Shown here piece after piece: positions 22,528 to 32,958 of a DNA stretch of 64,000 nucleotides (positions are counted from its first letter, which is position 1; every line of letters begins with the position of its first letter). This DNA comes from Phenylobacterium aquaticum (lineage in GTDB: Bacteria; Pseudomonadota; Alphaproteobacteria; Caulobacterales; Caulobacteraceae): contig CANCJJ010000001.1 of assembly GCA_947378305.1 (NCBI GenBank), positions 1 to 64,000 of the forward strand, written 5' to 3'. Made by a program: the position numbers and the translations under genes. The notes under the pieces were generated by a model that had not been told where the DNA came from, did not search any database, and was given only the letters and a program-made list of their open reading frames with translations.

Positions 22528-22558
22528 AAAAAACCCCCCGGCGTTTCCACCGGGGGGC
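22528..22558 (-). terminator. Strong intrinsic terminator of the acyl-CoA dehydrogenase row
   Basis: CCCCCCGG (22534-22541) and CCGGGGGG (22550-22557) form an 8-bp G-C stem around an 8-base loop. Read on the minus strand, the stem is followed by TTTTTT (22533-22528). It lies 28 bases beyond the stop of the last dehydrogenase gene, exactly where a Rho-independent terminator is expected. Confidence 0.9.
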
Positions 22559-22585
22559 CATTTCGCAACCCGATTTGGGCTGGGC

Positions 22586-23722
22586 TTAGTAACCCTGAAT
22601 GCGGGCGTAGCGGTCGCGATGATAGCTCTGGCTACCGAAGGCGGCCTCACAGGCGCGGGCGCGCTTCAGATAGAAGCCCGAGTCATGGGCATCGGTCATG
22701 CCGATCCCGCCGTGCATCTGGACCATTTCATTGGACACCAGATGGAAGACGTCGCCCATCTTGGCCTTGGCCAGGGAGACCAGTTCCGGAACATCGGGGC
22801 TATCGGCATCGATCGCAGCCAGGGCGGCTTCGACGGCGCTGCGGGCCAGTTCAAGATCGGTGAACATCTTGGCGGCGCGGTGTTGCAGGGCCTGGAAGGA
22901 GCCGATGACCTGTCCGAACTGAACCCGGACCTTCAGATAGTCCAGGGTGGTTTCGAAAGACTGGACGGCAGCGCCCAGCATTTCAGCCGACAGACCGGCC
23001 CGGACCCGATCCAGGGTCTTTTCCAGAACGTCCCAGCCCTTGCCGGCTTCACCCATCACCGCATCGGCACCGACCTCGACCTTGTCGAAGGTGATATTGG
23101 CTGCGCCGCGATTGTCGGCCAGGGCCAGACGCTTGCGGCTAATGCCCTTGGTATCGGCCGGAACGACGAACAGGGTGATCCCGTCCTTCTCGCCAGCCTT
23201 GCCGGAGGTACGTGCGGCCACGATCAGAACATTGGCCGCCAGACCTTCCAGAACGAAGGTCTTGGTGCCGTTCAGCACATAGCCCGCACCGGACTTGGTC
23301 GCCGCCAGGGCCGTCTTTTCCGGGGCATGGTGAGCGCCTTCATCAATCGCCAGAGCGCCCACGGCGGTGCCTTCGGCAATCTTGGGCAGCCAGGCCGACT
23401 TTTGCGCATCCGTGCCGCCCAGCACGAGGGCGGAAGCCGCCCCCATGGCCGAGGCCAGCAGGGGGGAGGCGGTCAGGGTCCGGCCCAGCTCTTCCAGGAT
23501 CAGGCCCAGGGACAGATAGCCAAAGCTCGATCCGCCGTATTCCTCGGGGATGATGACCCCGGCCCAGCCCATTTCCGCCATTTCATTCCAGGCGGCGGCG
23601 TCATAGCCAATTTCAACGCCGCTATCGCGCATTTTCCGAAAGGCTGTGACCGGGCTCTTTTCCTGGGTCCAGCTCTTTGCGGCGTCGCGGAGCATGCTCT
23701 GTTCTTCGTTCAGAACGGCCAT
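22586..23722 (-). CDS. Acyl-CoA dehydrogenase, short form with degenerate signature (possible partner subunit)
   Basis: 378 residues. The N-terminal helical, middle beta and C-terminal helical domains of the family are all present (MLRDAAKSWTQEK; MAEMGWAGVIIPEEYGGSSFGYLSLGLILEELGR; RVQFGQVIGSFQALQHRAAKMFTDLELARSAVEAA). The usual signature SEPGAGSD is replaced by IDEGAHHAPEK. The C-terminus MHGGIGMTDAHDSGFYLKRARACEAAFGSQSYHRDRYARIQGY resembles FadE28-like subunits of mycobacterial alpha2-beta2 steroid dehydrogenases, which pair with a catalytic subunit. It is the last gene of a five-gene row. Partner-subunit function is an inference; an independent dehydrogenase cannot be excluded. Confidence 0.88.
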   Translation of the reverse strand: MAVLNEEQSMLRDAAKSWTQEKSPVTAFRKMRDSGVEIGYDAAAWNEMAEMGWAGVIIPEEYGGSSFGYLSLGLILEELGRTLTASPLLASAMGAASALVLGGTDAQKSAWLPKIAEGTAVGALAIDEGAHHAPEKTALAATKSGAGYVLNGTKTFVLEGLAANVLIVAARTSGKAGEKDGITLFVVPADTKGISRKRLALADNRGAANITFDKVEVGADAVMGEAGKGWDVLEKTLDRVRAGLSAEMLGAAVQSFETTLDYLKVRVQFGQVIGSFQALQHRAAKMFTDLELARSAVEAALAAIDADSPDVPELVSLAKAKMGDVFHLVSNEMVQMHGGIGMTDAHDSGFYLKRARACEAAFGSQSYHRDRYARIQGY

Positions 23723-23757
23723 TGTGTGTGTTTCCCTAGTTTCTTGTTTGTGTGTGA

Positions 23758-24963
23758 TCAGTTGTGTTGGGTGAGGTCGGGCAGACCCAGAATGCGCTTG
23801 GAGATAATGTTCGACTGAACCTCCTGGCTACCGCCATAGATCGTGAAGGCCTTGCCCCCCAGCCAGCCGCGAACGGCCGCAAGTTCCTCGGCGGAGAAGG
23901 TATCGCCTTCCCATCCCAGACCCTGGTGACCCATGATTTCCAGGGTCAGCTCGGCCTTCATCTGCATCCATTGGGTGCCGGCATTCTTCATGATCGAGGT
24001 CGCAGCACTCGGGCCGGAATTGCCCTTGGCCTCCAGCATGGCGCGGACGGCCGTTTGCTGGAAGGACCGGCCTTCGATCTCGTGCATGGCAATGCGGGTG
24101 CGCAGGTCGGAATCGGCGATCCGGCCCTGATCGTCGACGCCCACATATTCCTTGGCCAAGGCGGTGAGGGACTTGCCCCCGGCCATGCCGCCGCCGCCCG
24201 CGCCGGACAGGCCGGAGCGTTCGTGCTGCAGGAGGCGCTTGGCAATGGTCCAGCCGCCGTTCAGCGGGCCGACCAGGTCCTTCTTCTCGGCGCGCGCGTC
24301 GGTGAAGAAGGTTTCGCAGAAGGGCGAGTTTCCGGCGATCAGCGGGATCGGACGAACCTCAACCCCGGGCTGGTGCATGCTGAACAGGACAAAGGAAATC
24401 CCTTCATGCTTCTTGGCGGTATCGGTCCGAACGAGGCAGAAGCACCAGTCGGCATATTGCGCGCCGCTGGTCCAGATCTTCTGGCCGTTGATCAGATAGT
24501 GGTCGCCCTTGTCTTCGCACTTGGTAGACAGGGCCGCCAGGTCAGAGCCTGCGCCGGGCTCGGAGAAGCCCTGGCACCATTGCACGTCCCCGCGGCAGAT
24601 CTTGGGGATGTGCTCCATCTTCTGGGCTTCCGTGCCGTATTCCAGCAGGGTGGGGCCGAACATCATAATGCCCATGCCGCCGATGGGATTATAGGCCCCT
24701 GCCCGTCCCAGTTCCTGCTGGATCACCCGGGCTTCCGCCGAGGACAGGCCGCCGCCGCCATACTGGGCAGGCCAGGTCGGTGTGCCCCAGCCCTTTTCGC
24801 CCATGGCCTTGCGCCAGGCTTCCTGAGCGGGAGAAGGCTTTGAGCGCTCCTCGCGCATCATCGGGTTGGGCCGGCCCTTCAGCTCGGCCGGAAAATTCGC
24901 TTCGATCCAGCTCCGCGCCTCAGTGCGCAGGGCATCGAGATCAACGCCTCCAAAGTCCGCCAT
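23758..24963 (-). CDS. Acyl-CoA dehydrogenase (paralogue A1)
   Basis: 401 residues. The middle domain has the intact family signature WCQGFSEPGAGSDLAA, then HYLINGQKIWTSGAQYADWCFCLVRTD, which contacts FAD and substrate. The C-terminal LEIMGHQGLGWEGD and IYGGSQEVQSNIISKRILGLP carry the FAD-binding and dimer region. It belongs to the FadE29-like soluble type that takes CoA esters of bulky or branched acids and passes electrons to ETF. The tail PDLTQHN is almost the same as that of the next gene upstream (PDLTQSH), so these two are a recent pair. AGGAGAT precedes the ATG. Confidence 0.93.
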   Translation of the reverse strand: MADFGGVDLDALRTEARSWIEANFPAELKGRPNPMMREERSKPSPAQEAWRKAMGEKGWGTPTWPAQYGGGGLSSAEARVIQQELGRAGAYNPIGGMGIMMFGPTLLEYGTEAQKMEHIPKICRGDVQWCQGFSEPGAGSDLAALSTKCEDKGDHYLINGQKIWTSGAQYADWCFCLVRTDTAKKHEGISFVLFSMHQPGVEVRPIPLIAGNSPFCETFFTDARAEKKDLVGPLNGGWTIAKRLLQHERSGLSGAGGGGMAGGKSLTALAKEYVGVDDQGRIADSDLRTRIAMHEIEGRSFQQTAVRAMLEAKGNSGPSAATSIMKNAGTQWMQMKAELTLEIMGHQGLGWEGDTFSAEELAAVRGWLGGKAFTIYGGSQEVQSNIISKRILGLPDLTQHN

Positions 24964-24993
24964 GAATATCTCCTTGAAATCTTGGTCTTGAAA

Positions 24994-26202
24994 TTAATGC
25001 GATTGCGTAAGGTCGGGGAGGCCCAGAATCCGCTTCGAAATGATGTTGTTCTGCACCTCGTTGGACCCGCCATAGATGGAGCCCGCCTTGCCGGAAAGCC
25101 AGGACCGCACCGCGGTCAGTTCGTCGGCCGAGAAGTCACTTCCTTCCCAGCCCAGACCCTGACTGCCCATGAATTCCAGGGTCAGTTCCGCCCGGTCCTG
25201 AGCCACCTTCATATTGGCATTTTTCATGATCGATGTGGCAGCGCTGGGGCCGGAATTGCCCTTGGCCTCCAGGGCGGCGCGACGCACGGTCTGTTGCAGG
25301 GCGCGCTTGTCCATCTCGTTCATGATGATCCGTGTCCGCAGATCGGTATCTGCCAGACGCCCCGCTTCATCCTCGCCGATATATTTCTTCGCCACGACGC
25401 CGAGGGCCGGTTCGGCCACGGGGGCCGCACGACCGCCATTCATGCCGGAGCGTTCATGCTGCAGCAGGCGCTTGGCCACGCTCCAGCCGCCATTCAAGGG
25501 GCCGATCAGGTTTTCCTTGGGCACCTTCACATCGGTGAAGAAGGTCTCGCAGAAGGGCGAATTGCCGGCAATCAGCTTGATGGGACGCACTTCGACGCCA
25601 GGCTGATGCATGGAGAAGACCACGAAGGAAATGCCTTCATGCTTCTTCGAGCTATCGGTGCGGACCAGGCAGAAAATCATCTGGGCGTACTGGCCGCCAC
25701 TGGTCCAGATCTTCGAGCCATTGACCAGGAAGTGGTCGCCCTTGTCCTCGGCCTTGGTCTGGAGACTGGCCAGGTCAGAGCCCGCGCCGGGCTCGGAAAA
25801 GCCCTGGCACCAGCGCACCTTGCCGGTGACGATGTCGGGGATATAGGCCTGCTTCTGGGCTTCCGTGCCGTATTCCAGCAGGGTGGGGCCGAACATGCCC
25901 ACGCCCATGCCGCCAATCGGGTTCACGGCACCAATACGGGCCATTTCCTGTTGCAGAATCCGGGTCTGTTCAATGGACAGGCCGCCACCGCCGTATTGGG
26001 CGGGCCAGGTCGGGGTGCCCCAACCCTTTTCCCCCATGCGGGTTTTCCAGACGGCGTAATCGCCGGTGGGCTCAGCAGGCGACAGGGTCAGGGCCAGCAG
26101 GGCCTCCGGGTCCTTGCCAAGGGACTTGGGGAAGTTCGCCTCAAGCCAGTCCCGCGCCTCGACGCGGAATCCTTCAAGATCTGTGTTTCCAAAATCAGCC
26201 AT
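24994..26202 (-). CDS. Acyl-CoA dehydrogenase (paralogue A2)
   Basis: 402 residues, the closest relative in the window of the gene 30 bases downstream. Signature WCQGFSEPGAGSDLAS and substrate/FAD segment HFLVNGSKIWTSGGQYAQMIFCLVRTD are intact, and the C-terminus is IYGGSNEVQNNIISKRILGLPDLTQSH. The two differ mainly in the mid-C-terminal loop after LLQHERSG (AGGGGMAGG here replaced by NGGRAAPVAEPALG), which lines the substrate tunnel, suggesting divergent acyl preference. The 68-base gap upstream holds a small palindrome, AGTCTAGACT (26237-26246). Confidence 0.93.
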   Translation of the reverse strand: MADFGNTDLEGFRVEARDWLEANFPKSLGKDPEALLALTLSPAEPTGDYAVWKTRMGEKGWGTPTWPAQYGGGGLSIEQTRILQQEMARIGAVNPIGGMGVGMFGPTLLEYGTEAQKQAYIPDIVTGKVRWCQGFSEPGAGSDLASLQTKAEDKGDHFLVNGSKIWTSGGQYAQMIFCLVRTDSSKKHEGISFVVFSMHQPGVEVRPIKLIAGNSPFCETFFTDVKVPKENLIGPLNGGWSVAKRLLQHERSGMNGGRAAPVAEPALGVVAKKYIGEDEAGRLADTDLRTRIIMNEMDKRALQQTVRRAALEAKGNSGPSAATSIMKNANMKVAQDRAELTLEFMGSQGLGWEGSDFSADELTAVRSWLSGKAGSIYGGSNEVQNNIISKRILGLPDLTQSH

Positions 26203-26236
26203 CTCAAATCCCCTCTAATTCAGCACGTTAATGATC

Positions 26237-26246
26237 AGTCTAGACT
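26237..26246. promoter_or_regulatory. Small palindrome upstream of paralogue A2
   Basis: AGTCTAGACT is a perfect 10-base palindrome in the 68-base gap between two dehydrogenase genes, the widest gap inside the row. It could be part of an internal promoter or operator, or chance. There is no second copy that I noticed. Confidence 0.25.
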
Positions 26247-26270
26247 ATCTAGGGTCGCCTGTGGGCCTGT

Positions 26271-27482
26271 CTATTTCGGATCAGGAAGTCCAAGCACCCT
26301 CTTGGATACGACGTTCAGATTAATCTCTGAAGTCCCGCCTTCAATCGAATTGCCTTTGGATCGCAGCCAGGTTCGCACGGCGGCGAGTTCGGGGCCGTCA
26401 AAGCCCTCCCCCTCCCAACCCAGTCCGTGGAGCCCCAGGGCCTCCACGATCAGTTCATTGCGGTCCTGCGCAATCTTGGCTCCGGCATATTTCATGATCG
26501 AAGTCGCCGCGGAAGGCCCCTGATTCGACCGGGCTTCATCGGCGGCACGGCGCACGGTCTGCTGGAAGGCCTGAACCTCCATCTGGTGCTCGATCACCCG
26601 TCGGCGCAGGTCGGAATCCGCCAGGCGGCCCGTCTCATCAAGACCCACATAATCCTCTGCGGCCTGACGGACCGTCAGGGCCGTGACCGGCGCACCGATG
26701 GACCCGCCCCCGAGGCCTGCGGAAATGTTGTCCCGTTCAAACTGCAAGAGCCGCTTGGCCACGGTCCAGCCGCCATTGAGGGGACCAAACAACTGGTCCT
26801 TCGGCACCTTTACCTCGGTAAAGAAGGTCTCGCAGAAGGGCGAAGTGCCATTAATAAGCAGGATGGGACGAACCTCCACCCCCGGAGACTTCATGTCGAT
26901 CAACAGGAAGCTGATGCCCTCATGCTTCTTGGTCGTGTCGGTCCGAACCAGACAGAAGCACCAGTCCGCCAGATTGGCCCCGCTGGTCCAGATCTTCGAG
27001 CCCGTCACCAGGTAATGGTCACCCATGTCGACAGCCCGGGTCTGAAGGCTGGCCAGGTCCGATCCCGATCCAGGCTCAGAATAGCCCTGGCACCACCGCA
27101 CCGAGCCCGTGACAATGCCGGGGAGGTGCTGCTGCTTGAGGGTTTCGGTTCCGTATTCAATCAAGGTCGGGCCAAACATCATGACCCCCATGCCGCCGAT
27201 AGGATTGCGCGCGCCAATCGCGGCCATTTCCTCGGCCAGGACACGGGCCTCGGGTCGCGACAGTCCACCGCCACCGTATTGCGACGGCCAGGTGGGTGTG
27301 CCCCAGCCTTTGGAGCCAATACGCTCGCGCCACATCCGGGCATCCGGGCCTTCCTTGCCCCCGGCCATGGCGGCCAGCTGCGCCGCGGGATCAGACTTCA
27401 GGGCTGCGGGAAAATTTTCACCCAGCCAGGTCCTGACTTCGGACCGAAAGGCCTCGACATCGCTCCCACCAAAATCAGCCAT
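26271..27482 (-). CDS. Acyl-CoA dehydrogenase (paralogue B1)
   Basis: 403 residues. The signature is WCQGYSEPGSGSDLAS, followed by HYLVTGSKIWTSGANLADWCFCLVRTDTTKKHEGISF. The C-terminal segment is IEGGTSEINLNVVSKRVLGLPDPK, differing from the A pair (IYGGS...PDLTQ) and agreeing with the gene upstream (IEGGSSEVNLNVIAKRVLGLPDPK). The four longer dehydrogenases therefore fall into two pairs. The loop after LLQFERDNISAGLGGGSIGAPVTALTVRQAAEDYVGLDE is specific to this copy. The product should be a cytoplasmic FAD enzyme forming the alpha,beta double bond of an acyl-CoA; the substrate is unknown. Confidence 0.93.
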   Translation of the reverse strand: MADFGGSDVEAFRSEVRTWLGENFPAALKSDPAAQLAAMAGGKEGPDARMWRERIGSKGWGTPTWPSQYGGGGLSRPEARVLAEEMAAIGARNPIGGMGVMMFGPTLIEYGTETLKQQHLPGIVTGSVRWCQGYSEPGSGSDLASLQTRAVDMGDHYLVTGSKIWTSGANLADWCFCLVRTDTTKKHEGISFLLIDMKSPGVEVRPILLINGTSPFCETFFTEVKVPKDQLFGPLNGGWTVAKRLLQFERDNISAGLGGGSIGAPVTALTVRQAAEDYVGLDETGRLADSDLRRRVIEHQMEVQAFQQTVRRAADEARSNQGPSAATSIMKYAGAKIAQDRNELIVEALGLHGLGWEGEGFDGPELAAVRTWLRSKGNSIEGGTSEINLNVVSKRVLGLPDPK

Positions 27483-27539
27483 TTCAATTCGCCTTCGAAA
27501 AATAACCGTTCAAAACTGGACCTGACGTTCTCTGCCGCC

Positions 27540-28763
27540 TCACTTGGGATCGGGCAAGCCCAGAACGCGCTTGGCGATCACATTCAGATTGACCTCCGAG
27601 CTGCCGCCTTCGATGGAATTCGCCTTGGATCGCAACCAGCCCCGCGCGGCACCGATTTCCTGCCCGGAATAGCTGTCCCCGGTCCAGCCCAGACCCTGGT
27701 GGCCCATGGTCTCGATCATGAGCTCCCACCGCTCCTGGGCAAAACTCGCTGCGGCATATTTGATGATCGACGTCGCCGCCGAAGGTCCGTTGGAGGCGCG
27801 GGATTCCGCTGCCACCCGGGAAATCGTCTTGTAGAAACAGTCGAAGTCCATCTTGTTGCGGGTGATCCGGGTCCGCAAGTCGCTGTCTTCAAGCGCACCC
27901 GACGGGTCAAGGCCGAGATACCCCTTGGCAATGGTCCCCAGATCGCTGGAGGAGCCCGAGGCCCCGTCGCCAGGTCCGAATCCGCCGGAAATGTTCTGGC
28001 GCTCATATTGCAGCAGGCGTTTGGCAATTTCCCAGCCGCCATTCACCTGCCCAACCAGATTGCCCTTGGGAATCTTCACATCCGTAAAGAAGGTCTCGCA
28101 GAAGGGGCTCTCGCCTGAAATCAGGGGAATGGGCCGGGTCTCGACGCCCGGGCTGGTCATGTCGATCAGGACAAACGAAATGCCCTCATGCTTCTTGGTC
28201 GTATCCGTGCGGACAAGGCAGAAGCACCAGTCGGCCTTGTTGGCATAGGAGGTCCAGACCTTCTGGCCATTGATCAGCCAGTGATCGCCCTTGTCCTCGC
28301 ATCGGGTCTGGAGTGAGGCCAGATCGGACCCCGCTCCGGGCTCGGAATAGCCCTGGCACCAACGCGCCTCGCCGCGAATGATGGCGGGGAGGTGTTCGCG
28401 CTTCTGGTCTTCATTGGCATATTCCAGCAGGACCGGACCCAACATCCAGACCCCGAAGGAGGCCAGGGCCGGACGATATCGGCCTGCCGCCATTTCCTGT
28501 TCGAGAATTCGGACCTGATCGCGATCCAGGCCGCCGCCGCCATAGGTTGAGGGCCAGGCCGGAGCCGTCCAGCCCTGCTCGGCCATACGGCGCATCCAGA
28601 CGATTTGGGGATCTGAAGAGGTGAGGAAGCCCCGCCCACCCCAGACCGCTTCCGGGTCTGTCGCCACACTGCCATCCCGGAGCTCTGCAGGATAATTGGC
28701 CGCCAACCAGGTCCGGACTTCGTCACGGAAGCCGTCAGGTGTCATGCCGCCAAAATCCGCCAT
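27540..28763 (-). CDS. Acyl-CoA dehydrogenase (paralogue B2), first gene of the row
   Basis: 407 residues, slightly longer than its sisters because of an insertion near the N-terminus (SVATDPEAVWGGRGFLTSSDPQ). The signature WCQGYSEPGAGSDLAS and the substrate segment HWLINGQKVWTSYANKADWCFCLVRTD are intact. The C-terminus IEGGSSEVNLNVIAKRVLGLPDPK matches paralogue B1. It is the promoter-proximal gene: about 70 bases upstream lies the near-palindrome TCGAACACGTGTTTGA at 28831-28846. Gaps between the five genes are 30 to 68 bases with no terminator, so one transcript is likely. Confidence 0.93.
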   Translation of the reverse strand: MADFGGMTPDGFRDEVRTWLAANYPAELRDGSVATDPEAVWGGRGFLTSSDPQIVWMRRMAEQGWTAPAWPSTYGGGGLDRDQVRILEQEMAAGRYRPALASFGVWMLGPVLLEYANEDQKREHLPAIIRGEARWCQGYSEPGAGSDLASLQTRCEDKGDHWLINGQKVWTSYANKADWCFCLVRTDTTKKHEGISFVLIDMTSPGVETRPIPLISGESPFCETFFTDVKIPKGNLVGQVNGGWEIAKRLLQYERQNISGGFGPGDGASGSSSDLGTIAKGYLGLDPSGALEDSDLRTRITRNKMDFDCFYKTISRVAAESRASNGPSAATSIIKYAAASFAQERWELMIETMGHQGLGWTGDSYSGQEIGAARGWLRSKANSIEGGSSEVNLNVIAKRVLGLPDPK

Positions 28764-28830
28764 AAGGCCCTCCGCCCCGATCTGCTCTTACCCTCGCACC
28801 TTAACGCCGGGATGGCGCGGAGCAAGTCAT

Positions 28831-28846
28831 TCGAACACGTGTTTGA
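28831..28846. promoter_or_regulatory. Near-palindrome, candidate operator of the acyl-CoA dehydrogenase row
   Basis: TCGAACACGTGTTTGA is symmetrical at 14 of 16 positions about the central ACGT. It lies between the divergent dehydrogenase row and the DUF2156 gene. Its size and symmetry fit a TetR-family repressor, the class that usually controls fatty-acid and steroid catabolism (FadR, PsrA and KstR-type). No regulator gene of that family is in the window. Confidence 0.45.
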
Positions 28847-28928
28847 CTCTTCACGGCCAAAGCTGGTCGTTTCCGGGGTCCTACCTATGTTATAGACTGC
28901 AGGGCTTCGGTAGACTTCAGGACAAGTT

Positions 28929-30587
28929 ATGCGCTTTTGGCGTGAAATCCGGCCCGCACTCCTGGCAACGGCCCCGCCGGTATTCGCCCTCCTGACCCTG
29001 GCTGCGGGGGTCATGCTGATGGCGTCCGGGGCCACGCCCTCGGTTCCCGAGCGGTTCATGGCCCTCTATGAGCATACGCCAATCCTGGAGATTGAGCTCA
29101 GCCACTTTCTCTCCAGCATACTGGGTCTGGCCCTGGTCTTGTTTGCCTTTGGGCTTCGCGCCCGCCTGGATGCCGCCTGGACGGCCAGTGTGGCAACCCT
29201 GGCCGTGACTTCGATCCTAGCCATGACCAAGGGGTTTATCTGGGAAGAATCCCTGACCCTGGCCGCCCTGGCCCTGGCCCTCTTGCCCTTCCGGGCAGCC
29301 TTTCACCGGCGTGCGCGTCTGACCCAGATGGAGGTGACCCCTGGCTGGCTAATGTCTACGGCCGCCGCCCTGATCGGGGCCGGACTGCTTGGCCTCTGGT
29401 TCTTCCAGCATGCGGATTACGACGCCCAGCCTTTCTGGAAAACTATGGTGGACCGCGATGCCGCCCGCTCGATCCGCGCCTGGGCTGGCACAGCCACGAC
29501 CTTCTTTGCCTTCGGTGTCTGGCGGCTCTGGGCCACGGCAGCGACGCCCAAGGTCATTGCCCAGGACGATACGGATTTTGAAAAGGTCCGCGCCATATTG
29601 GCGGTGGCCGAGGTCGGCGAGCCCGCCTCCAACCTGGCCCTGCTGGGCGACAAGCGGTTCCTGTTCAGCCCCTCGGGCGAAAGCTTCCTCATGTTCGGCG
29701 TGCGCGGGCGCTCCTGGATCACCCTGGGCGCTCCGGTCGGGCGACGGGACGAGCGAATGGAATTGCTCTGGCGGTTCCGGGAACTGGCGGATTCCCACGC
29801 TGCCCGGGCGGGCGTTTATGCCATAGGCCCTGACGACCTGCCCGATGTGGTCGAGCTGGGCTTTTCCATCCAAAAGATAGGTGAAAACGCCCTCGTCCCC
29901 CTGGAAACCTTCAGTGTGCAGGGGCGCAAGCGGGGGAACCTGCGTCGGGCCTGGCGCAAGGCCTGCGAGGACGGGGCCAGTTTCGAGGTCATTGCCCCAT
30001 CTGAGGTCGCAGCCCATCTGGAGGCGCTGAAATGGGTGTCGGACTCCTGGCTTGAGCACCATTCCGGAGGGGAAAAATCCTTTTCCCTGGGCGGATTTCA
30101 ACCCGACTATCTGTGCGAGTTTCCCGTGGCCCTCATTCGGTTCGAGGGGCAGATTGTGGCCTTCACCAATCTATGGACCACCGCCAGCAAGGCCGCCTTC
30201 TCCATGGACCTGATGCGCTATTCCGACACAGCGCCCAAGAACATCATGGACTATTTGTTCATTGAACTTCTCGAATGGGGCCGGGCCCAGGGATATGAGT
30301 CCTTTGACTTCGGCATGGCCCCCCTGGCCGGGCTTGAGGATCGCCCCCTGGCCCCCATGATGTCGCGGGTTGGGCGTCTGTTTTTCGACCGGGCCGAGAG
30401 CTTCTACAACTTCCAGGGCGTGCGGAAATTCAAGGACAAGTACGACCCGAACTGGCAGCCACGCTATCTGGCCGCCCCGGCCAAATGGACCATTCCCCTG
30501 CTGTTGGCCGATGTTGGGCTCTTGTCATCAGGCGGCGTGGCGGGCCTGACCCGCAGAGGTCGCCGCGACGAGCCGACGGAAACCTAA
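28929..30587 (+). CDS. DUF2156-domain membrane protein (MprF C-terminal-like)
   Basis: 552 residues. The first 190 contain about five hydrophobic spans (LLATAPPVFALLTLAAGVMLMAS; LSSILGLALVLFAFGL; ATLAVTSILAM; LALALLPFRAAF; LMSTAAALIGAGLLGLWFF). The rest is the DUF2156/LPG-synthase catalytic domain, a tandem GNAT-like fold, with FLFSPSGESFLMFGVRGRSWITLGAPVG, RKRGNLRRAWRKACEDGASFEVI, FSMDLMRYSDTAPKNIMDYLFIELLEWGRAQGYESFDFGMAPLAG and FYNFQGVRKFKDKYDPNWQPRYLA. In MprF this domain moves Lys or Ala from aminoacyl-tRNA to phosphatidylglycerol. A reduced membrane part makes a full MprF flippase unlikely, but aminoacyl-phospholipid synthesis or a related transfer is plausible. Confidence 0.9.
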   Translation: MRFWREIRPALLATAPPVFALLTLAAGVMLMASGATPSVPERFMALYEHTPILEIELSHFLSSILGLALVLFAFGLRARLDAAWTASVATLAVTSILAMTKGFIWEESLTLAALALALLPFRAAFHRRARLTQMEVTPGWLMSTAAALIGAGLLGLWFFQHADYDAQPFWKTMVDRDAARSIRAWAGTATTFFAFGVWRLWATAATPKVIAQDDTDFEKVRAILAVAEVGEPASNLALLGDKRFLFSPSGESFLMFGVRGRSWITLGAPVGRRDERMELLWRFRELADSHAARAGVYAIGPDDLPDVVELGFSIQKIGENALVPLETFSVQGRKRGNLRRAWRKACEDGASFEVIAPSEVAAHLEALKWVSDSWLEHHSGGEKSFSLGGFQPDYLCEFPVALIRFEGQIVAFTNLWTTASKAAFSMDLMRYSDTAPKNIMDYLFIELLEWGRAQGYESFDFGMAPLAGLEDRPLAPMMSRVGRLFFDRAESFYNFQGVRKFKDKYDPNWQPRYLAAPAKWTIPLLLADVGLLSSGGVAGLTRRGRRDEPTET

Positions 30588-30855: not shown

Positions 30856-30961
30856 TCATCCACAGTCACGGCCTTGACCTGCGACTCAAAGGTTAACGTC
30901 GCGTTTACACTCATACCCCGGGTGGTTAGGGTTGTTCCAATCAGCTGGAACAGAGAGATTC
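30856..30961 (+). promoter_or_regulatory. Cell-cycle-type regulatory region of the podJ-like gene
   Basis: The leader holds, in order, a DnaA-box-like TCATCCACA (30856-30864, one mismatch to TTATCCACA), a -35-like TTGACC (30874-30879), a CcrM site GACTC (30883-30887), a CtrA-like box TTAA-N7-TTTAC (30893-30908) overlapping a -10-like GTTAAC, and a second CcrM site GATTC (30957-30961) just before the ATG. Caulobacter podJ is known to respond to DnaA, GcrA and CtrA; GANTC sites are how GcrA recognises promoters. Each site alone is weak, and the combination is what is notable. Confidence 0.5.
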
Positions 30962-30963
30962 GT

Positions 30964-32958
30964 ATGTCCTCAAGGACGCCCTGGAGCGTCAAGGGAATCG
31001 ATCCAAAAGCCCGGGAGGTCGCAAAGGACCTGGCCCGTCGGTCTGACATGACCCTGGGCACCTGGCTGAACGCCCGTATTTTCGAAGAACAGGCCCCCCA
31101 GCCCAGTCGCGCCGATGATGACCTGCCTGACCTGAATCAAACCCTGGACCAGCTTGGCCGCCGACTTGACCTTGCAGAAGCTGCCCTGCAGGTGCCCGTC
31201 CCTGAGGCCCTGATCTCCAGTCTCCAGCACCTGGAATCCAAGATTGAGGACCTTGCGGCCCGGATTGCCCGGTCAGAGCAGGGGTCAGCGCGCAGGGTCA
31301 GTGCCCTGGGCCGGGAGGTTCTCACCCTGGCAGAGGCCTTGACCCACCGGGTCAGTCAGGCGGAGGCGCGAAATTCGGAAGCGATTGGGCGCGTGAGCCA
31401 GGACCTGGTGCGCATGAATCAGGGCTTTGAATCCCGCCTCTCCCTCAATTCAGCGGCGCAAGCCGATGCCATGGCGCGCCTGGGTGGCGAGATTGCCCTC
31501 ATGCGCGACCGCCTTGCCGCGCGCATGGCCGATCCGGAGCGCAAGCCCGCCCTGGGGGCGAATTTGACTCCTTCATCGACATCGCCGTCGCCAGATGCCC
31601 CGCTGGACGACCCCTTAAGGGACCGGATACGCCAGAGCGAGGGTCGGACGGCGCTTCTGTTGGAACAGGCCCGCGCCCAGATCGAGGCCCACCGCGCCCA
31701 GAAGGATAGGTCTGGATCGGGGTCCACCAGCGACCTCATGCCTCCTGTTGCCGACCCTTCCGGCGATGACCTGTTTGATGAGCAGCTATTTCAACCCCTG
31801 CCCGTTCCGGACGCCCGGCCCATTCTTGATACACGACCGGTCTTTTCCCCTCAGGCCCGGACGGTCGGACCCTTTGGGCGTAGTTTCAGCCTGTCGGGGG
31901 CTCAGGGAGAGATGAGCCTGGTCCCGACCGGGCCTGTCCTGGTCTCCAGCCGTGATCCTGCTGCGGAAGAGGGGCAGGACCTGGAATATCCGATGGAGGC
32001 CCCGGCCCTGGCCGCCCGGTCCCGACCGACCAACTGGACCTTGCGGCTCGTCGCGACAACCTCGCTCATTGCCCTTAGCCTGGCAGGCCTTGGACTGCTG
32101 CAACAGGCACCGGGCGGCGCGAGTTTGCCCAGGTCCGGCCCTCCCGCCAAGGTCGTCTCCAAGACCCTGCCGCCGGCGGTACAGCCCCGACTTGCTGTCG
32201 CCCTGACCCCTGCGGTCACCGCTCCCGCTGCGACATCCGCCCTCCCGGACCTGTCCACACGGTTCGATCAGGCCAGAAGAGATTTGGCCGCAAACCGGCC
32301 CGGGGCCCTGGCCGATCTACAGGGGCTGGCCAATCTGGGTTTTCCGCCTGCCCGGGCCTTGCTGATCGATGTCTATGACAAGGGACAGGGTAATATTGCC
32401 CGCGATCCGGCCGCCGCGAGGGTCTGGATGCAGCGTGGCGCTGAAGCCGGCGACCGGCTGGCCATGCATCGTCTGGCCTTGACCCTTGCTCAGGGGACCG
32501 CTGGCCCCAAGGACCCGGTCACGGCCAGTCGCTGGTTTCGCAAGGCCGCAGATCTGGGTCTGGTGGACAGTCAGTTCAATATGGGCGTGATCTATGAGCG
32601 GGGCCTGGGTGTCGAACGCGATCTGACCCAGGCCTATAACTGGTATGTCATCGCCGCGCGGGCGGGCGATGGGGAGGCCCGGAAAAGTGCCGATCGCCTG
32701 CGCGAGCAAGTCCCGCTCGAAGCGCGCCTGGCAGCAGGCGGGTCTGACTCAACGGCGACGAGCCCCCAGGATAGCGCCGACATCAAGCAGGCCCAGCGGG
32801 TCCTTTACCGGCTAGGCTATTATCGCGGGACCACGGACGGCCTTGCCAGCGCGGCCTTCAAACAGGCCCTGAGTGCCTATCAGCGCGAGCACAACCTGAC
32901 GGTGACCGGTGGCCTGGATCCCCTGACAACCCAGCGCCTTGCCGTCCTGGCGCAATAG
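30964..32958 (+). CDS. podJ: PodJ-like polarity/localisation factor (Sel1 repeats, PG-binding domain)
   Basis: 664 residues from ATG 30964 (MSSRTPWSVKGIDPKAREVAKDLARRSDMTLGTWLNARI, the standard PodJ beginning); the track start adds 30 leader residues. The cytoplasmic part has coiled-coil stretches (about residues 55-190 and 225-245). One membrane span (LRLVATTSLIALSLAGLGLL, about 361-380) is followed by periplasmic Sel1-like repeats (ALLIDVYDKGQGNIARDPAAARVWMQRGAEAGD; FNMGVIYERGLGVERDLTQAYNWYVIAARAGD) and a C-terminal PG_binding_1 domain (QRVLYRLGYYRGTTDGLASAAFKQAL). In Caulobacter PodJ organises the new pole and directs stalk and pilus machinery. This copy is about two-thirds of that length, with a shorter coiled-coil part. 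Confidence 0.85.
   Translation: MSSRTPWSVKGIDPKAREVAKDLARRSDMTLGTWLNARIFEEQAPQPSRADDDLPDLNQTLDQLGRRLDLAEAALQVPVPEALISSLQHLESKIEDLAARIARSEQGSARRVSALGREVLTLAEALTHRVSQAEARNSEAIGRVSQDLVRMNQGFESRLSLNSAAQADAMARLGGEIALMRDRLAARMADPERKPALGANLTPSSTSPSPDAPLDDPLRDRIRQSEGRTALLLEQARAQIEAHRAQKDRSGSGSTSDLMPPVADPSGDDLFDEQLFQPLPVPDARPILDTRPVFSPQARTVGPFGRSFSLSGAQGEMSLVPTGPVLVSSRDPAAEEGQDLEYPMEAPALAARSRPTNWTLRLVATTSLIALSLAGLGLLQQAPGGASLPRSGPPAKVVSKTLPPAVQPRLAVALTPAVTAPAATSALPDLSTRFDQARRDLAANRPGALADLQGLANLGFPPARALLIDVYDKGQGNIARDPAAARVWMQRGAEAGDRLAMHRLALTLAQGTAGPKDPVTASRWFRKAADLGLVDSQFNMGVIYERGLGVERDLTQAYNWYVIAARAGDGEARKSADRLREQVPLEARLAAGGSDSTATSPQDSADIKQAQRVLYRLGYYRGTTDGLASAAFKQALSAYQREHNLTVTGGLDPLTTQRLAVLAQ

Follow-up and report, generated by a model that had tools for sequence, protein, structure and literature searches.

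Heteromeric acyl-coenzyme A (acyl-CoA) dehydrogenases are known in which the heteromer is essential, one subunit holds the catalytic Glu and flavin adenine dinucleotide (FAD) lies at the interface (PMC8399759). The alpha subunit holds the isoalloxazine, the Glu and the substrate, and the beta subunit holds the adenosine diphosphate (ADP) part of the cofactor (PMC11153573). ChsE4-ChsE5 (FadE26-FadE27) of Mycobacterium tuberculosis and Tcur3483-Tcur3481 of Thermomonospora curvata (PDB 4x28, 6wy8) consist of these two subunit types, while PimC/PimD and dicarboxylate-specific beta-proteobacterial homologues follow a two-gene layout of large and small subunit (PMC12543098). Here we describe five consecutive acyl-CoA dehydrogenase (ACAD) genes of Phenylobacterium aquaticum, located in a stretch of 64,000 nucleotides (positions 1 to 64,000 of contig CANCJJ010000001.1, assembly GCA_947378305.1; hereafter the window), as a cluster of four predicted alpha genes (L1 to L4) and one predicted beta gene (S). 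The best-supported mechanism, which we consider probable on the basis of gene copy number, is that a common beta subunit completes each of several dehydrogenases that differ in their alpha.

Subunit types encoded by the cluster

An earlier note on this DNA had described five same-strand ACAD genes with short gaps and one terminator at the end, and open reading frames, Pfam matches and a hairpin search bear this out. Coordinates are those of the window.

27540-28763, minus strand: L1, 407 residues, predicted alpha (large, catalytic) subunit, first gene; within the clade of single-copy Caulobacterales alphas
26271-27482, minus strand: L2, 403 residues, predicted alpha subunit, derived clade
24994-26202, minus strand: L3, 402 residues, predicted alpha subunit, derived clade
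23758-24963, minus strand: L4, 401 residues, predicted alpha subunit, derived clade
22586-23722, minus strand: S, 378 residues, predicted beta (small) subunit, the only one of the cluster
22532-22559, minus strand: intrinsic terminator after S, 12-pair stem with T-run
28764-28928: divergent intergenic region between the operon and an mprF-type gene, presumed promoter region, with one GANTC site at 28845

The genes are transcribed from L1 to S with gaps of 57 (L1/L2), 68 (L2/L3), 30 (L3/L4) and 35 bases (L4/S). No terminator-like site was found in these gaps on the minus strand (one weak match lies within L2), and directly 3' of S stands a strong terminator-like hairpin (22559-22532; 12 pairs, 9 of them GC, and a T-run). 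A sigma-70 promoter search gave no match in 28764-28928. The genome assembly (2.34 Mb, 91% complete) contains 29 matches to Pfam PF00441; given the 55-68% identity among L1-L4 and a gene order that is conserved across the genus, the five-gene array is far beyond chance.

All five proteins contain the N-terminal, middle and C-terminal acyl-CoA dehydrogenase domains above Pfam cut-offs, and L1-L4 align with S only partially, at ~22-26% identity. The best NCBIfam model is the PimC large subunit for L1-L4 (251-280 bits; equivalog cut-off 624) and the PimD small subunit for S (250 bits; cut-off 653). Because these scores do not reach even half the equivalog cut-offs, the cluster is not the same enzyme as PimC/PimD, and identity with pimeloyl-CoA dehydrogenase (TIGR03204/TIGR03203) was rejected. 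Among PDB entries, L1 and L3 match Tcur3483 and ChsE4 (FadE26; 4x28_A) best, these complexes being the closest solved structures for the alphas of the window; S also matches the beta partners of Tcur3483 and ChsE4, but ordinary ACADs score higher. Among monomer models folded with AlphaFold2, that of L3 (mean predicted local distance difference test (pLDDT) score 83.6) gives top Foldseek matches to entries for Tcur3481-Tcur3483 and ChsE4-ChsE5, and that of S (pLDDT 91.7) matches ACADs in general. L1-L4 are very probably alpha (catalytic) subunits of the PimC/FadE26(ChsE4)/Tcur3483 kind, and S a beta subunit of the PimD/FadE27/Tcur3481 kind.

Active-site residues were surveyed by alignment in 241 related alphas and 59 betas. 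ChsE4 E247 (PDB 4x28) is matched in the HMMER alignment by E250 of L3, which falls within helix 239-256 of the L3 model. This helix-G catalytic Glu is present in 241/241 alphas, as is the W-T-S motif, and its position is occupied by A, V or T in all 59 betas. The J-K-loop position (E376 in MCAD) is never Glu in either subunit type, being G in 237 of the 238 alphas with a residue there (A in one) and F in 50 betas, Y in 8 and a gap in one. The R-x-x-FG...Q..Q motif, invariant in 59/59 betas, is presumably, as in ACADs generally, the ADP side of the FAD site. S retains it (R266..FG270..Q277..Q280) along with QMHGG (335-339) and has no catalytic Glu at either known position. An E-helix Pro occurs in 214/241 alphas, in a region that structure-function work has tied to bulky substrates (PMC11153573). 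The residue survey, combined with the published subunit roles, therefore identifies the array as four alphas and one beta rather than two pairs, an assignment from sequence that we regard as firm. The usual layout of one alpha beside one beta, which is not strictly defining for the FadE26-27/PimCD type, is not what the window contains.

Kinship with heteromeric FadE-type dehydrogenases, proposed in the earlier note, agrees with the family profiles, structure matches and active-site residues. The features from which the note had sorted the long genes into two paralogue pairs are likewise present in the sequences: the C-terminal tail is GLPDPK in L1 and L2 and GLPDLTQ in L3 and L4, and the loop after LLQ(H/F/Y)ER varies among copies. 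The pairs themselves fared differently, as all four long genes are predicted alphas and only the short gene a beta. In IQ-TREE phylogenies, L1 falls among the order's single-copy alphas, and one derived clade (support 100/100) unites L2, L3 and L4 with further copies. L1 and L2 are rejected as a clade (approximately unbiased (AU) test, p = 1.7e-8); an L3+L4 clade is not recovered, and is not rejected either (p = 0.13).

An orphan alpha on contig C22 of the same genome (L084, 7093-8307) is 53-61% identical to L1-L4 and has no adjoining beta. It grouped with a cluster orthogroup in first trees, and its interpretation as a dispersed in-cluster copy was later dropped: when class-level alphas were added to the tree it joined L105, L129, L132 and L133, and these relatives include alphas next to a beta (L105, L132, L133).

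Alpha and beta copy number in related genomes

The comparison covered 80 named loci and further genomes (loci are given below as three-digit L numbers, genomes as G numbers), the closest named relatives being Phenylobacterium and other Caulobacteraceae. Most of the family and the remainder of the order have one alpha plus one beta (1+1; L106, L108-L112, L116, L117, L119-L124), followed by 2+1 in a near relative (L113), 3+1 in L114 and L125, 4+1 in the window, L003, L006, L010, L017 and many Phenylobacterium, P. haematophilum and P. aquaticum included, and 5+1 in L029 and L034. In multi-alpha loci the single beta is placed last in the direction of transcription. In several genera, as in Caulobacter and in L106, the 1+1 locus occupies the same site, adjoining mprF and podJ-like genes. 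The alpha gene has multiplied stepwise across relatives while the beta gene stayed single. An alphaproteobacterium of another family also has a row of four alphas plus one beta (L128, 6510-12712), perhaps through partly independent duplication or transfer.

Among 81 genus genomes with completeness of at least 90%, 72 had one beta, 4 had two and 5 had none, and the median alpha count was 6 as a lower bound. At least four alphas occurred with exactly one beta in 66/81, and presence of alpha and beta was linked (Fisher p = 1.5e-5). The genes are jointly retained in relatives, a point raised in the earlier note. Single zero counts are unreliable, as G076 scored zero for alpha although alphas are present at its locus L107. 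Within the genome of the window, four other beta-type genes are 32-35% identical to S (the nearest 35%), and each directly adjoins its own alpha, 33-39% identical to L1-L4.

If one beta serves many alphas, the cell should have to make more of it than of any one alpha. In codon adaptation, normalised for amino acids, the beta exceeded the mean of the alphas in 34/39 multi-alpha loci versus 12/37 single-alpha loci, and, once similar loci had been collapsed, in 14/16 versus 11/30 (Fisher p = 0.0015). In the window the values are 0.51 (L1), 0.46 (L2), 0.61 (L3), 0.63 (L4) and 0.68 (S), compared to 0.71 for groEL. The beta outscores the alphas in codon adaptation only at loci with many alphas, a relationship that is correlative.

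Proposed subunit sharing, possible substrates and competing explanations

In the mechanism that we favour, the cluster would encode a family of heteromeric alpha2beta2-type acyl-CoA dehydrogenases with a common beta. Each of L1-L4 would contribute the pocket for the acyl group, the part of the FAD site that faces the isoalloxazine (KIWTSG, SEPGxGSD) and the catalytic base, predicted to be the helix-G Glu within LLQxER, and S would contribute the other (ADP-side) half of the FAD site and no catalytic residue. Given that an alpha alone would have an incomplete FAD site, combining the one beta with each of the four alphas should yield four interchangeable enzymes, assembled as alpha-i2 beta2 or perhaps as mixed alpha-i alpha-j beta2, with the alphas tuned to different acyl-CoAs via residues beside the catalytic Glu, the E-helix loop and the J-K loop. 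Subunit class, active-site residues, operon layout, the stepwise rise in alpha number around a single beta and the higher codon adaptation of the beta in multi-alpha loci are observed here; physical sharing of the beta, alpha2beta2 stoichiometry and substrate specialisation are what we infer. A further-reaching version, in which a single beta partners as many as about six divergent alphas, distantly encoded ones among them, and forms mixed two-alpha tetramers, is tentative and in our estimate rather doubtful; if true, a cell would hold more enzyme species than alpha genes, and the lineage would have gained new substrate range by copying the catalytic half of a split active site and nothing else.

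Positions fixed within and different between L1, L2, L3 and L4 number 52. Active-site segments comprise 55 positions in the E-helix loop, the W-T-S strand, the stretch of helix G that surrounds the Glu, and the J-K loop, and they contain 20 of the 52 (p = 1e-6). Position 249, beside the catalytic Glu, is Tyr, Phe, His and His in L1, L2, L3 and L4, respectively. This concentration supports different substrates, and the substrate splitting put forward in the earlier note is probable, with bulky or branched acyl-CoAs as the likeliest class. The note's association with steroid catabolism found no support: the genome (91% complete) gave no match to KshA_C (PF19298) in a search whose control genomes included no steroid degrader, no steroid-ring genes stand beside the cluster, and the lack of KshA_C counts with moderate weight against canonical degradation via the 9,10-seco pathway. 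Neighbouring genes in the window (mprF, podJ-like, GreA family) are unrelated and were set aside as a guide to function.

Genes near copies in other genomes offer hints only. A TonB-receptor-like gene of ~1000 residues, with a borderline Plug domain score, lies inside the alpha array of L049 (12583-15507) and L064 (12967-15963), which hints at outer-membrane substrate uptake. L098 has an extra alpha and beta near a transporter and a TonB receptor, and in L099 a thiolase, a CoA-ligase and a GMC oxidoreductase are located near extra alphas. In three Phenylobacterium genomes a dispersed alpha with no beta nearby stands right behind a glycolate-oxidase-like glcDEF set (L102, 7361-8572; L103, 7574-8857; L104, 6859-8070).

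Several points weigh against sharing of a single beta. Alpha counts are lower bounds, since the first look scored only ~23 candidates per genome. Four genus genomes have a second beta, which in G022 adjoins a second alpha (L098), so certain additional alphas come with a beta of their own; a second close beta could also be missing from the incomplete P. aquaticum assembly. The pocket segments were picked on the basis of known ACAD anatomy, at a point when differences among the copies had already been noticed. The codon adaptation reference was groEL/groES of one genome, and the loci compared are mutually related, with the single-alpha loci partly from other genera. Some alphas could be homomeric or borrow the distant betas 32-35% identical to S.

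Carried further, this last point becomes the explanation that a single alpha, likeliest L1 as the ancestral partner or L4 as the gene next to S, pairs with S, and the others are homomeric or use distant betas. Although the four other beta-type genes and the C22 orphan alpha speak for it, we consider it unlikely, in that every distant beta adjoins an alpha of its own, catalytic and FAD-side residues are identical in 241/241 alphas, beta codon adaptation is raised only in multi-alpha loci, and the heteromer is reported essential for this enzyme type (PMC8399759). Redundant dosage copies without specialisation are more improbable still. Tandem duplication often increases dosage and all catalytic residues are common to the copies, but the L1-L4 orthogroups are old (55-68% identity) and their order is kept across many species, copy-specific positions cluster in active-site segments, and dosage by itself would not keep the beta single. 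Least probable, and in our view very improbable, is the model of the earlier note in which the pairs L1/L2 and L3/L4 form mixed tetramers together: the members of each pair have common tails and mixed tetramers are known among steroid dehydrogenases (PMC8399759), but those consist of one alpha and one beta, whereas all four long proteins are alpha-type with the catalytic Glu, the tree tests given above reject one pair and fail to recover the other, and relatives have 2, 3 or 5 alphas.

If the beta is indeed shared, a split active site would have evolved by multiplication of its substrate-facing half with the cofactor-holding half kept constant, providing a swappable enzyme kit with a single partner that activates many specificities. 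Sharing would also account for clusters that resemble mere paralogue arrays, and would caution against annotating their members as independent enzymes.

Adjoining genes and comparison with described systems

Beside the operon, an MprF-type protein of 552 residues (28929-30587, plus strand) matches the bifunctional model only at its C-terminal part (positions 312-839), and is predicted to be a lysyl-phosphatidylglycerol synthase that lacks the N-terminal portion of the flippase-synthase. The motif for CcrM methylation, GANTC, occurs 132 times in the whole window versus ~262 expected from shuffles, and one site (28845-28849) is found between the divergently oriented ACAD operon and mprF. A literature search for the Caulobacter orthologues by presumed locus tag turned up only the neighbouring mprF, CCNA_02127, for which a CcrM study (PMC3973325) lists -1.93. 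Beyond the mprF-type gene of the window (30874-32958, plus strand) is a Sel1-repeat and peptidoglycan-binding protein of 694 residues, syntenic with Caulobacter proteins of ~977-1001 residues that start MTAAAPWSVKGIDPKAREVAKDL. It is probably a shortened PodJ polarity factor.

The Caulobacter single-copy locus, in the same genomic place beside mprF and podJ, consists of an alpha orthologous to L1 by the tree, a DsbA-like gene (PF01323), and a beta orthologous to S by identity. It differs from the window in its one alpha and in the DsbA-family gene between the subunits (L073, 11211-11837; L061, 11366-12001), which is missing from Phenylobacterium clusters.

Within the KstR2 regulon, one FadE subunit reportedly pairs with two partners. 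FadE31-FadE32-FadE33 and IpdE1-IpdE2 of this regulon (IpdE1-IpdE2 being FadE30-FadE33; PMC8708139) resemble the window in that neighbouring ACAD genes encode heteromeric enzymes, but that set serves the steroid C/D-ring pathway, and no tandem amplification of one subunit type was found for it in the literature searched. PimC/PimD, which provide the best NCBIfam models for the window subunits, have one large subunit only, unlike the four described here. ChsE4-ChsE5 and Tcur3483-Tcur3481 combine one alpha and one beta in steroid side-chain pathways, in contrast to four alphas and one beta in a genome without a detected KshA. Within the literature searched, which was limited in range, we found no report of alpha-only amplification around a single beta. 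The graded series from 1+1 to 5+1 within one family lends itself to direct tests of subunit sharing and of how specificity evolved. Heteromeric alpha/beta dehydrogenases are already known; what appears new, against that literature, is the multiplication of the alpha alone around one beta.

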